Of a stretch of DNA of 64,000 bases, positions 60,292-64,000 are shown one piece after another. Made by a program: the position numbers and the translations under genes. Each line of letters starts with the position of its first letter. Within the stretch, counting starts at the first letter, position 1. The notes under the pieces are model-generated. The model had not been told where the DNA came from. It did not search any database and saw nothing but the letters and a program-made list of their open reading frames with translations. Origin of the DNA: Dickeya lacustris (GTDB lineage Bacteria > Pseudomonadota > Gammaproteobacteria > Enterobacterales > Enterobacteriaceae); NCBI RefSeq assembly GCF_029635795.1, contig NZ_CP114280.1, positions 2,294,001 to 2,358,000 of the forward strand, written 5' to 3'.

Positions 60292-61299
60292 ATGCTGATC
60301 CCTCAACCTTATCTGCTTTTTCTTGGCGATGTGACCGACCCGCTGGCGGTGAAAACCGCGCGCGGCATTCACACCTGGCGTGCCGAACAGTGTGTCGGGC
60401 AGTTGCGTCTGCCGGGCAGCACGGTGTCGCTGGGATTAGACGATCTGGATATTGCCGAAGCACGCGCCCAGGGTGCGAAAACGCTGGTGCTGGGCACGGC
60501 TAACGCCGGTGGCTTTCTGCCCGCGCACTGGCTTGATACCGTGCGCGCGGCCATCGCAGCGGGCATGAACGTCGCCAACGGTCTGCATCAGCGCCTGACA
60601 GACGTTCCCGGCTTGTCGGCACTGGCCGAACAGCATCAGGTGCAGTTATTCGATATTCGCCACATGCGCCCGGAACTGACGGTCGGCAGCGGTGAAGCGC
60701 GCAGCGGCAAACGGGTGTTAACCGTCGGCACCGACTGTTCGGTCGGCAAAATGTACACCTCGCTGGCGCTGGAAGCGGCGATGCGCAAACAGGGCATGAA
60801 GGCCGATTTTCGCGCCACCGGCCAGACGGGTGTGCTGGTCGCCGGTGACGGCATCGCCATTGACGCCGTGATTGCCGATTTTATTGCCGGTGCCGCCGAA
60901 GCGCTGTCACCGGCCAATGACGATGACCACTGGGATATCGTCGAAGGTCAGGGGTCGCTGTTTCACCCCTCTTACGCGGGCGTGACAACCGGCCTTATCC
61001 ACGGCGCACAGCCACACTGGCTGGTGATGTGCCACGAAATGGGCCGCCCGCATATGCGCCACCTGCCGCACCAGCCGATGGTGGAGCTGGAGGAATGCAT
61101 CGACGCCTGCCTGCGCACCGCGCGCGTCACCAATCCGGCGGTACAGCTGGCGGGGCTGGCCATCAACACCTCGAATTACGCCGAGCAGGAAGCACGCGAC
61201 TATTGTCTGGCCTTAAGCACGCGTTTTGGCGTGCCAGCCACCGACCCGATTCGCTTCGGCATTGATGACATTGCCGCCCTGCTCAAGGCGCAGGGGTAA
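60292..61299 (+). CDS. dgcN: DUF1611 family protein, DgcN-like (D-glutamate N-acetyltransferase candidate)
   Basis: 335 residues. An N-terminal Rossmann-type domain (about 1-130) is followed by a P-loop domain with VGTDCSVGKMYTSLALE (P-loop GTDCSVGK at 146-153), FRATGQTGVLVAGDGIAIDAV and EGQGSLFHPSYAGVTTGLIHG. These are the DUF1611 hallmarks. DgcN of this family N-acetylates D-glutamate, the first step of a pathway described in marine bacteria and archaea, with the epimerase DgcA converting the product. Here the next gene, 4 bases away, is such an epimerase. Assignment rests on this pairing and the family; no enzyme activity is seen in the sequence. Confidence 0.8.
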   Translation: MLIPQPYLLFLGDVTDPLAVKTARGIHTWRAEQCVGQLRLPGSTVSLGLDDLDIAEARAQGAKTLVLGTANAGGFLPAHWLDTVRAAIAAGMNVANGLHQRLTDVPGLSALAEQHQVQLFDIRHMRPELTVGSGEARSGKRVLTVGTDCSVGKMYTSLALEAAMRKQGMKADFRATGQTGVLVAGDGIAIDAVIADFIAGAAEALSPANDDDHWDIVEGQGSLFHPSYAGVTTGLIHGAQPHWLVMCHEMGRPHMRHLPHQPMVELEECIDACLRTARVTNPAVQLAGLAINTSNYAEQEARDYCLALSTRFGVPATDPIRFGIDDIAALLKAQG

Positions 61300-61303
61300 G
61301 CCG

Positions 61304-62269
61304 ATGCGACAGTTGCATATTGAAAGCATAGAACTGCCGCTGGCGCGCCCGTTTGCCATTGCGCGCGGCACCCGCACCGCCGTTACCGTGGTGCGCGTCA
61401 CGCTGGAAGAGAACGGGTTTATTGGCCGGGGAGAATGCACGCCCACCGCGCATTATCAGGAAACGCCCGTAAGCGTCATCCAACAACTGGAAAGCGTGCG
61501 TCAGGCGGTGGAAAGCGGCCTCAGCCTGGCTGCGTTGCAGCTCGCGCTGCCGCCGGGTTCGGCGCGCAACGCGCTCGATTGCGCGCTGTGGCGACTGAAT
61601 GCGGCGTTGGCCAGACAAACGCTGTGGCAGCACCTTGCCATGACGCCGCCCTCGTCGGTTATCACCGCTGAAACCCTCAGTCTGGACACGCTGGAAAAGA
61701 TGACGTTGGCAGCGGCCGATGCCGCAGCACGCGGGGCGCTGCTGCTGAAAATCAAACTCGATGACCGGCAAATCGTAGACAAAGTGCGCGCCATTCGTCA
61801 GGCGGCCCCCACCGCCACCCTGATTGTCGATGCCAATGAAGCCTGGAGCGGGCTGGCGCTGGAGCCGCTGCTGCACCAGTTGGCCGGGCAGGGCGTGGCG
61901 ATGGTTGAGCAACCGCTGCCTGCCGGGCAGGATGCGGCGCTGGCAGGCTTCCACCATGCGATTGCGGTGTGCGCCGATGAGAGCTGCCACCACCGGGGTG
62001 ACATCGCCGCGCTGGGCGATCGTTACGAGATTATCAACATCAAGCTCGATAAATGCGGCGGCCTGAGCGAGGCGCTGGCGATGGTCGCTGAAGCCCGCCG
62101 CTACGGGATGCGCATCATGGTCGGCTGCATGCTCGGCTCCTCGCTGGCGATGGAAGCAGCGCTGCCGGTGACGCTGGCGGCTGAGTATGTCGATCTCGAT
62201 GGCCCGATTTGGCTGGCCGCCGACAGCTCGCCCTACCTGACCTACAACCTTGGCCGCATCTGGCTTTAA
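61304..62269 (+). CDS. dgcA: Enolase-superfamily epimerase, DgcA-like / dipeptide epimerase type
   Basis: 321 residues from the ATG at 61304, 4 bases after the DUF1611 stop; longer forms would overlap that gene. It belongs to the muconate-lactonising/dipeptide-epimerase group: K149-x-K151 (LLLKIKLDD), metal ligands D176 (IVDANEAW), E202 (VEQPLP) and D225 (CADES), the second lysine K247 in INIKLDKCGG, and VGCMLGSSL and the DxD motif in YVDLDGP near the end. Paired with DgcN it would convert N-acetyl-D-glutamate to N-acetyl-L-glutamate; L-Ala-D/L-Glu epimerase activity is the main alternative, since both sit near a peptide importer. Confidence 0.82.
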   Translation: MRQLHIESIELPLARPFAIARGTRTAVTVVRVTLEENGFIGRGECTPTAHYQETPVSVIQQLESVRQAVESGLSLAALQLALPPGSARNALDCALWRLNAALARQTLWQHLAMTPPSSVITAETLSLDTLEKMTLAAADAAARGALLLKIKLDDRQIVDKVRAIRQAAPTATLIVDANEAWSGLALEPLLHQLAGQGVAMVEQPLPAGQDAALAGFHHAIAVCADESCHHRGDIAALGDRYEIINIKLDKCGGLSEALAMVAEARRYGMRIMVGCMLGSSLAMEAALPVTLAAEYVDLDGPIWLAADSSPYLTYNLGRIWL

Positions 62270-62284
62270 CCCTGTGGAGTAACG

Positions 62285-64000
62285 ATGACGGCCATTGCCC
62301 AACACCAGGACGCAGGCAACCGCGCCACTGAATCGATCACCGCCCCGCAACCGGTGCTGGAGATAACCGACCTGAGCGTCAGCTTTGAGGGGCGCTCCGG
62401 CAGGCATCTGGCGCTCAACGGCGTCTCCTTTTGCATCAATAAAGGCGAAGTGGTGGCAGTGGTCGGCGAGAGCGGCTCGGGCAAATCCGTCACTTCGCTG
62501 GCGGTAATGGGCCTGCTGGCGGCCTCGGCGCGTATTGAACGCGGCGCTATCCGCTTTCGTGGCAACCACAATAGCAATCACAGTAACAACCACGGCCAGC
62601 ACCATGACCTGCTGACGCTAACGGACGAGGCGCGCCGTAGCCTGCGCGGTCGCGACATGGCGATGATTTTTCAGGAACCGATGACCTCGCTCAACCCGGT
62701 GCTGAAAGTGGGCGACCAGCTTACCGAGGCGCTGTGCGATCACCGCCTGTGCGATGCCGCCAGCGCCCGCGAAAAAGCGCGCGACCTGCTGCGTAACGTG
62801 CGTATCGCCGATGTTGATAGGGTGATGGACAGCTACCCGCATTCGCTGTCCGGCGGCATGCGCCAGCGGGTGATGATTGCTCAGGCGCTGGCCTGCGACC
62901 CACAGTTACTGATTGCCGACGAACCGACCACCGCGCTGGATGTCACCGTGCAGGCGCGTATTTTGCAGATTCTGCGCGACCTACAACGCCAAAGCGGGAT
63001 GTCGGTACTGTTCATCACCCATGATATGGGCGTGGTGGCGGAAATCGCCGACCGCGTGGTGGTGATGTATCGCGGCAACGTGGTGGAACAAGGCACGGTG
63101 GCGGAGATTTTCTCCCGCCCGCAGCATGACTACACCAAAGCGCTGCTGGCAGCCGTACCGCGTCTGGGCGACATGCGCGACAGCGGCTGGCCGCGACGTT
63201 TCCCGCTGCTCGGCCAGGCCGATTTGCAACAACCGGCCCGCGACCACCTCACCGCCCGTTACGACCTGCCGCCACTGCTGGATGTTCGCGGCCTGAAAGT
63301 CTACTACCCGGTACGCAGCGGCCTGTTTTCCGCCATCACTCACCGGGTACACGCCGTCGAACAGATAGATTTTACGCTCTGGCCGGGGGAAACGCTGGCG
63401 ATCGTTGGCGAATCGGGCTGCGGTAAATCCACCACCGGGCGGGCGCTGCTGCGGCTGGTGGAGAGCCAGGCCGACAGCCTGCTGTTCAACGGCCAGGAGA
63501 TAGCCTCACTGCGCGAGCGCGATTTTCTGCCGCTGCGCCGCAAAATGCAGATGGTGTTTCAAGACCCGTATGCCTCGCTCAACCCGCGCCTGACGGTTGG
63601 CTTTACCCTCGCCGAGCCGCTGCTGCTGCACGGGCTGGTGAAATCACTGGAAGAGGCGACGCCGCAGGTGCAGGCGCTGCTGGAAAGTGTCGGCCTGCAA
63701 CCGGAACACGCCCAGCGCTACCCGCACGAATTCTCCGGCGGCCAGCGCCAGCGCATCGCCATTGCCCGCGCCATGGCACTGCAACCGCAGGTGATCATCG
63801 CCGACGAAGCGGTGTCAGCGCTGGATGTGTCGATTCAGGCGCAGGTCGTCAACCTGATGATGTCGCTTCAGCAAAAAACCGGCGTGGCGTGGATTTTCAT
63901 CTCCCACGATATGGCAGTGGTCGAGCGCATCGCCAATCGCGTGGCGGTGATGTACCTCGGCCAGATAGTGGAAATCGGCCCGCGCCAGTCGGTATTTAAC
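62285..64000 (+). CDS. Fused double-ATPase ABC transporter subunit for peptide uptake (partial)
   Basis: 572 codons present, open at the window edge; starts 15 bases after the dgcA stop with TGGAG upstream. Two ABC modules are fused, as in GsiA-type or DppD-DppF fusions. First: Walker A GESGSGKS (61-68), signature LSGGMRQRV (188-196), Walker B LLIADEPTTALD. Second: Walker A GESGCGKS, signature FSGGQRQRI, Walker B VIIADEAVSALD. The second begins with LKVYYPVRSG, the Opp/Dpp F-type start. An odd His/Asn-rich insertion (GNHNSNHSNNHGQHHD, residues 93-108) interrupts the first module. Permease and binding-protein genes probably follow. Confidence 0.93.
   Translation, partial: MTAIAQHQDAGNRATESITAPQPVLEITDLSVSFEGRSGRHLALNGVSFCINKGEVVAVVGESGSGKSVTSLAVMGLLAASARIERGAIRFRGNHNSNHSNNHGQHHDLLTLTDEARRSLRGRDMAMIFQEPMTSLNPVLKVGDQLTEALCDHRLCDAASAREKARDLLRNVRIADVDRVMDSYPHSLSGGMRQRVMIAQALACDPQLLIADEPTTALDVTVQARILQILRDLQRQSGMSVLFITHDMGVVAEIADRVVVMYRGNVVEQGTVAEIFSRPQHDYTKALLAAVPRLGDMRDSGWPRRFPLLGQADLQQPARDHLTARYDLPPLLDVRGLKVYYPVRSGLFSAITHRVHAVEQIDFTLWPGETLAIVGESGCGKSTTGRALLRLVESQADSLLFNGQEIASLRERDFLPLRRKMQMVFQDPYASLNPRLTVGFTLAEPLLLHGLVKSLEEATPQVQALLESVGLQPEHAQRYPHEFSGGQRQRIAIARAMALQPQVIIADEAVSALDVSIQAQVVNLMMSLQQKTGVAWIFISHDMAVVERIANRVAVMYLGQIVEIGPRQSVFN

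Follow-up and report, generated by a model that had tools for sequence, protein, structure and literature searches.

D-glutamate is a standard component of bacterial cell walls, and feeding on D-glutamate peptides by plant- or gut-associated enterobacteria has been little described. A D-glutamate pathway of marine bacteria, formed by DgcN and DgcA, has reportedly been presented in The ISME Journal. In Bacillus subtilis, the dpp-ykf genes include an LD-carboxypeptidase and an endopeptidase (YkfA and YkfC). In Escherichia coli, the MG1655 annotation names YcjG an L-Ala-D/L-Glu epimerase. DgcN and DgcA are listed for the D-glutamate pathway as EC 2.3.1.312 and EC 5.1.1.25, respectively, in PMC11747546. 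Here we analyze a stretch of 64,000 nucleotides from Dickeya lacustris (hereafter, the window), at whose 3′ end a gene run begins in which the genes of the DgcN-DgcA route, described from marine bacteria, are combined with those of a peptide importer and of peptidases. We consider it probable that this run is a scavenging operon for D-glutamate-containing peptides, most likely gamma-glutamyl or murein-derived, under a DgcR-type switch. The operon would thus unite, as one testable unit, the marine route, an importer, two peptidases of D-peptide type and a regulator. Among the literature matches listed, no paper had either dgcN in Dickeya or this operon as its subject.

Organization of the operon

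The window spans positions 2294001-2358000 of a one-contig genome of 4.37 Mb; features beyond it are given in genome numbering (G000:C1). Three plus-strand genes occupy its 3′ end, and the original prediction, made from the letters of the window, had described them as 4 and 15 bases apart. These distances hold when the epimerase gene starts at ATG 61304; the start given in the list of open reading frames (ORFs), TTG 61226, would overlap dgcN. That prediction had also proposed to look beyond the window for binding-protein, permease and peptidase genes. All of them were found, together with iaaA, and they fit the predicted operon. The features are as follows:

60187..60204, no strand assigned: palindrome CTATAGCCTCAGGTTATA, proposed operator of a DgcR-like LysR regulator (alignment of upstream regions, pattern counts)
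60292..61299, plus strand: dgcN, DUF1611 family, proposed D-glutamate N-acetyltransferase, 335 aa (ORF list, Pfam, NCBIfam)
61304..62269, plus strand: dgcA-like enolase-superfamily epimerase, 321 aa, proposed N-acetyl-D-glutamate racemase, perhaps also L-Ala-D/L-Glu epimerase (ORF, Pfam, NCBIfam, trees, residues, fold alignment)
62285..64000, plus strand, open at the window end (full gene G000:C1:2356285-2358195): gsiA-like fused peptide ATP-binding cassette (ABC) ATPase (Pfam, NCBIfam)
G000:C1:2358363-2359919, outside the window: gsiB-like family-5 binding protein (Pfam, NCBIfam)
G000:C1:2359937-2360857, outside the window: gsiC-like permease (Pfam, NCBIfam)
G000:C1:2360869-2361774, outside the window: gsiD-like permease (Pfam, NCBIfam)
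G000:C1:2361784-2362881, outside the window: S58 peptidase (Pfam)
G000:C1:2362878-2363699, outside the window: M55 D-aminopeptidase, overlapping the S58 gene by 4 bases (Pfam)
G000:C1:2363811-2364785, outside the window: iaaA, Asparaginase_2 (Pfam)
G000:C1 from 2380873, outside the window: DgcR-like LysR gene (protein match)

The first protein had been read as a DUF1611 protein with P-loop motifs, and it matches the Pfam families DUF1611_N and DUF1611 (P-loop domain, 255 bits). It also scores 521.5 bits on the NCBIfam equivalog NF041892, whose cut-off is 480, and is 92% identical to DgcN of Dickeya oryzae. The epimerase matches MR_MLE_N and MR_MLE_C. The enolase-superfamily metal and lysine residues that had been noticed in it stood up to alignment: K149, K151, D176, E202, D225 and K247 are invariant in 13 aligned epimerases that include E. 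coli YcjG. The fused ATPase is 636 aa long, with 572 aa inside the window and the remainder taken from the genome, and its two predicted ABC modules were recovered as two ABC_tran stretches (Pfam).

Distribution in enterobacteria and beyond

Named DgcN loci, of which 80 were kept out of at least 580 encoding a relative, were examined with flanks of up to 10 kb, some of them shorter. Thirteen are enterobacterial (Dickeya, Pantoea, one labelled Enterobacter, Acerihabitans, Rahnella and Rouxiella). The importer genes, S58 and M55 follow DgcN in all 13, the S58 match covering 44% in one of them (L006), and in 11 the gene set is present with each gene over most of its length. The trio named in the original prediction recurs as well: dgcN, dgcA and the fused ATPase stand in this order in 12 of the 13, beyond chance, and the remaining locus lacks dgcA. 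Neither S58 nor M55 was found beside DgcN within the flanks of the 67 non-enterobacterial loci, where DgcA is matched in 64 and a D-amino-acid transaminase (DAT) in 4.

In 295 sampled genomes of the family, DgcN was detected in 46 (above the cut-off in 41) and M55 in 42. Half of the M55 loci (21 of 42, hence 21 of 295 genomes) carry the complete set DgcN-DgcA-GsiABCD-S58-M55, although S58 or M55 is in pieces or incomplete in 3 of these and S58 is in two pieces in a fourth. The other M55 loci lack DgcN (8), belong to a distant IaaA-GsiABCD-S58-M55 block (5), consist of S58-M55 alone (3), lack DgcA (2), lack the importer (2) or are decayed (1). IaaA is the last gene in 10 of the 21 complete operons and in 8/8 of those without dgcN. 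Separate conservation of the three genes had been named in advance as an outcome that would speak against a common function. One half of that outcome was observed: DgcN-DgcA is widespread without this importer, and one clade has the importer-peptidase part without dgcN.

The operon occurs in several plant-associated genera and also on plasmids of Pantoea and Klebsiella. DgcN relatives (E 1e-60) are encoded on 81 of 72,556 plasmid records, including 20 of Klebsiella, 12 of Pantoea and 3 of Enterobacter. Both enterobacterial plasmids that were examined, one from Klebsiella pneumoniae and one from Pantoea ananatis, bear the operon from dgcN to M55 and a LysR gene. On the K. pneumoniae plasmid (NZ_CP127519.1, 61117-84121; L257), the operon and the LysR gene lie near pco copper genes, with insertion sequence (IS) transposase genes on both sides.

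Additional loci deserve mention. In five genomes (L158, L161, L162, L164 and L165), S58 and M55 come after an IaaA-GsiABCD run that has the E. coli gene order, and the GsiB motifs are E. coli-like; the E. coli glutathione importer may therefore be part of a wider peptide system. DgcA2-DAT pairs are present in L210, L211 and L212 (genomes G105, G151 and G241), where DgcN is not matched, and in L171 and L172 DgcN adjoins DAT with no DgcA between them. The strongly reduced 0.94-Mb genome G150 has one intact DgcN (L156:9166-10173, 504.8 bits), and neither DgcA nor any operon gene was matched within 19 kb around it. S58 and a D-aminopeptidase are listed as common to 12 Pectobacterium species in a genome paper (PMC6963963).

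A DgcR-like regulator and a conserved palindrome

The original prediction had also suggested a search for regulator genes. Of the 48 operon loci read, 30 encode a LysR protein that shares 59-100% identity with the query from locus L178, mostly directly after the operon; some of these loci represent the same genome twice and others are truncated by the ends of the stretch. In the Dickeya genome the corresponding gene (81% identical to the same query) lies 16 kb past IaaA. The intervening genes, assigned by Pfam for four of them in the Dickeya genome (L231) and for six importer-group proteins of a relative (L233), were interpreted as encoding exporter components (HlyD-like, outer-membrane and MacB-like), three 256-aa proteins similar to one another, a second peptide importer accompanied by a beta-lactamase-family protein, and, as a separate item, an M19 dipeptidase. 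The three 256-aa proteins are encoded in tandem beside the exporter-like group (L231:5644-8002), and the one tested has no Pfam match. A 912-aa frame (L231:12841-15579) joins a binding protein and a permease that are separate genes in L233.

The regulator and an upstream palindrome tie the operon to the DgcR-DgcN-DgcA system, and the observations are as follows:

(i). A Pseudoalteromonas record is annotated in the order dgcR-dgcN-dgcA, and its DgcR finds the operon LysR as the best match in the Dickeya genome (33% identity, E 2.4e-40; next match, 8.7e-29), in a comparison made in one direction only.

(ii). In Vibrio sp. SCSIO 43135, a LysR gene whose product is 36% identical lies immediately before dgcN.

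(iii). A palindrome is found about 100 bp upstream of dgcN, inside a block common to ten aligned upstream regions. It is of the T-N11-A type, which we take to be a LysR operator kind.

The search pattern was a 15-mer, ATAACCTNAGGTTAT, derived from the ten-locus alignment and scored at 14 positions; the ten aligned regions are not independent of the motif, and the remaining ones are. All 34 distinct operon upstream regions match it with no more than 3 mismatches in the 14 positions, a value reached by 0 or 1 of 100 shuffles in the operon rows, and the eight operons that start with dgcA match it with at most one. Among 66 other DgcN loci, 15 contain it at up to two mismatches (10 from Vibrio or Photobacterium, 2 from Pseudoalteromonas, those of Alteromonas and Cognaticolwellia, and one stand-alone DgcN), and none of 13 DAT-type dgcN loci does. 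In the annotated Pseudoalteromonas locus, the sole match at this threshold within 13 kb sits between dgcR and dgcN, and 12 of 200 shuffles matched somewhere. We did not count genome-wide rarity of the palindrome as evidence: at two mismatches the reversed control gave 2 matches versus one site for the pattern, and within the window a 15-mer occurs with at most two mismatches in 3 other places.

We propose that the palindrome is the operator of the DgcR-like regulator. Because this LysR and the palindrome tie the operon to the dgcN-dgcA loci of Vibrio and Pseudoalteromonas, the D-glutamate route and its control have probably been retained, and peptide import and peptidases added to them.

The Dickeya genome harbors a second dgcN-dgcA pair, followed by a DAT gene whose frame is broken after about 192 codons (G000:C1:1038501-1041400; L004:8501-11400). 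The palindrome is absent from this locus.

Relationships of DgcN and the epimerase

Model scores leave the epimerase with two names. On the DgcA model NF042940, meant to separate DgcA from YcjG, it scores 419.6 (cut-off 400), and on the L-Ala-D/L-Glu epimerase model NF011708 it scores 360.1 (cut-off 343). The DAT-linked DgcA of the same genome reaches 477.6 on the former and fails the latter with 316. E. coli YcjG itself surpasses the window epimerase on the DgcA model, with 424.1; the label DgcA is therefore weak evidence, and we rejected it as proof of function. The nearest solved structures are 4gfi, a dipeptide-epimerase homologue, and 1jpd, which is YcjG, and a fold alignment with E. coli YcjG gives 49% identity over 315 residues.

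Phylogenetic trees were built with 92 of 128 epimerase rows (those near S58/M55, MpaA or DAT, a few named loci and every third of the rest) and with 71 of 112 DgcN rows. The operon epimerases form one clade (100/100), separate from the mpaA-linked YcjG clade (100/100), in which one member has no mpaA seen nearby. Their nearest relatives are DgcN-linked enzymes of Vibrionaceae, with weak support (94/74). In the DgcN tree, the operon proteins and three stand-alone DgcN genes are sister to Vibrionaceae DgcN (96/90). Both trees agree on a common ancestry of the pair, and are silent on substrate. Linkage of dgcA and dgcN accompanies these shared relatives; the exceptions are two operons that have dgcN and no dgcA, and the dgcN-less clade. 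As the epimerase passes both cut-offs and forms a clade of its own, it may be either a DgcA or an L-Ala-D/L-Glu epimerase.

Importer and peptidases

GsiA, GsiB, GsiC and GsiD are the best NCBIfam matches of the four importer proteins, with scores below each equivalog cut-off (798.3/1077, 492.1/594, 397.9/463 and 403.2/484). Among solved structures, the binding protein is closest to E. coli YliB/GsiB. M55 scores 314.9 bits on Pfam PF04951, above the threshold, and 161.4 on the Bacillus DppA equivalog NF058634, whose cut-off is 430. The residues aligned with the metal ligands of B. subtilis DppA, presumably metal-binding, are kept. The S58 protein passes PF03576 (DmpA/BapA peptidases) with 343.1 bits, has 2drh, 1b65, 5tzb, 3n2w and 3n5i as solved kin, and keeps the aligned Gly-Ser motif of an S58 homologue. 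Since the Gsi and DppA cut-offs are missed, neither cargo nor cleavage specificity can be derived from orthology. A gamma-linked D-glutamate peptide could be a suitable cargo for an importer of the Gsi type, which in E. coli takes its name from glutathione.

Proposed function and alternatives

In the scheme that we favor, the Gsi-type importer would take up short peptides, which S58 and M55 would cut, with the help of IaaA in this branch of the family. DgcN would then N-acetylate free D-glutamate, and the epimerase would convert N-acetyl-D-glutamate to N-acetyl-L-glutamate, which would enter arginine or glutamate metabolism; the same enzyme may also epimerize L-Ala-D-Glu. The DgcR-type regulator would bind the single palindromic site before dgcN and, through it, control the induction of the operon. 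Muropeptides may be the cargo. The presence of an importer and two peptidases of D-peptide type in one gene run supports this scheme. Altogether, the D-glutamate reading of the original prediction has gained from gene content, recurrence, regulator and palindrome, and has been weakened by the cut-offs missed by the importer and by M55 and by the frailty of the name DgcA.

Additional observations count against it. The regulator gene is 16 kb away in this genome. No muropeptide amidase or LD-peptidase Pfam domain was found in any of the 9 operon proteins. The importer-peptidase part persists without dgcN in one clade, and S58-M55 stands alone in 3 genomes.

An alternative is that the operon recycles murein peptides in the manner of dpp-ykf, its epimerase acting on L-Ala-D-Glu like YcjG and DgcN having a side activity or detoxifying free D-glutamate. 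The YcjG-model score and the solved structures nearest to the epimerase agree with this view, as does the combination of importer, M55 and epimerase. Besides, the epimerase search found only two strong matches in the Dickeya genome, the operon copy and the DAT-linked copy, and no mpaA-type ycjG. We deem the alternative unlikely, however: DgcN comes first in 21 of 29 epimerase-bearing importer operons of this type, it has the same nearest relatives as the epimerase, the regulator and the palindrome match the DgcR system, and the operon epimerases fall outside the YcjG clade. General scavenging of gamma-glutamyl peptides or isopeptides, in which the importer would serve glutathione-like or isoaspartyl peptides and D-glutamate would be one product among others, might explain the kinship of the binding protein with YliB/GsiB and the terminal IaaA, and yet is quite improbable, given that all four subunits score below the Gsi cut-offs, that IaaA is absent beside about half of the complete operons, and that DgcN and DgcA would be left without a role in glutathione use.

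Operons without dgcN

Eight sampled operons, assigned by protein matches to Pectobacterium and kin, Symbiopectobacterium and Brenneria, lack dgcN and keep the palindrome, the epimerase, the importer, S58, M55 and IaaA. Their epimerases retain K149, K151, D176, E202, D225, K247, D297 and D299 in 8/8 cases. F17 and R21, invariant in 120/120 other epimerases, are both altered in all eight, and H229 is replaced by R. A strict rule by which absence of dgcN entails absence of R21 was broken by five further Brenneria operons: R21 and H229 persist in 3 of the now 13 distinct epimerases from operons without dgcN. R21 is thus lost in 10 of 13, versus 0 of 32 in dgcN-containing operons. In most R21-less epimerases the changes also include F17 and T25, with F17 kept in 2 of 10. 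Among database homologues, 10 of 120 lack R21. In the nine Brenneria genomes searched (9/9), there is one DgcN per genome, in a DAT-type locus.

On the tree, dgcN was lost once, and R21 changed at least three times, always within the dgcN-less clade, which makes up 5.3% of the total length of the 93-row tree. A branch-length calculation gives 0.00014 for this concentration, a figure that assumes independent changes and was computed after the pattern had been seen. Because dgcN was lost only once, just one pair is available to the independent-pairs test (p = 1).

Various explanations of R21 loss were discarded. Redundancy with a second DgcA is an unlikely cause, as the Dickeya genome has both loci and yet keeps R21. 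Decay is unlikely too: the ratio of nonsynonymous to synonymous substitution rates (dN/dS) is 0.04-0.12 in four pairs of R21-less epimerases, and the eight catalytic and DxD residues are kept in 13/13. We do not claim that R21 is the glutamate-binding arginine of known epimerases; the nearby R24 is kept in 8/8.

As a control, we counted columns conserved in dgcN operons and altered in the first eight dgcN-less ones. GsiB has 10 and the epimerase 5; GsiC and GsiD have 1 each, and GsiA, S58 and M55 have 0. In GsiB, QFW at 272-274 and FYNGW at 411-415 are found in 9 of 10 R21-less loci, while QFW is absent in the 3 R21-keeping Brenneria operons and in the 31 dgcN operons read. Exceptions occur on both sides: in three operons placed beside Lonsdalea, FYNGW and W274 coexist with an intact R21, and one Brenneria operon that lacks R21 has the old GsiB. 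In the alignment with DppA, the two stretches correspond to GYLSYN and MGWTGD, parts that presumably face its ligand; on this alignment alone, we do not claim the GsiB motifs as ligand contacts.

Loss of R21 together with the change of GsiB motifs suggests a switched substrate, with the caveat that it rests on one loss of dgcN. A tentative possibility is that the operon comes in two forms that differ in specificity. The form with dgcN would serve D-glutamate peptides. After the single loss in the ancestor that Pectobacterium, Brenneria and Symbiopectobacterium share, the importer and the epimerase would have moved jointly to another peptide in most descendants, through changes in the N-terminal loop of the epimerase (R21, mostly together with F17 and T25), at H229 and in two GsiB motifs, with the catalytic residues kept. 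If so, the dgcN-less enzymes would be epimerases of some other D-residue. The clade amounts to a natural experiment on the joint change of importer and enzyme specificity.

Comparison with known systems

Several mentions of related genes were found in the literature. A DUF1611 gene of Dickeya dadantii, which may be either DgcN copy, is listed as upregulated in filamentous cells on potato in PMC6695200, and a DUF1611 gene of Dickeya phage AD1 is numbered beside an asparagine synthase gene in PMC6143709. A term search gave no match in a Dickeya solani transposon-sequencing (Tn-seq) paper (PMC10202176).

Comparison with four described systems places the operon as follows:

(i). E. coli ycjG-mpaA contains a close relative of the epimerase, in a different neighborhood and in a separate clade.

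(ii). E. coli iaaA-gsiABCD also associates IaaA with a Gsi-type importer with a fused ATPase. In Dickeya, however, the subunits are under the Gsi cut-offs, IaaA is last rather than first, and DgcN, DgcA, S58 and M55 are added.

(iii). B. subtilis dpp-ykf likewise combines a peptide importer, an M55 D-aminopeptidase and an enolase-type epimerase. Dickeya has DgcN, S58 and IaaA in place of the Ykf peptidases, no YkfA/YkfC-type Pfam domain being found among the 9 operon proteins, and its M55 is below the DppA cut-off.

(iv). The marine DgcR-DgcN-DgcA system shares with the operon the order DgcN then DgcA, a DgcR-related LysR and the same type of palindrome before dgcN. The differences are that S58 and M55 were matched in the enterobacterial loci and in none of the other 67 within flanks of up to 10 kb, some of them shorter, that the operon enzymes form a separate subgroup, and that the Dickeya regulator is encoded downstream.

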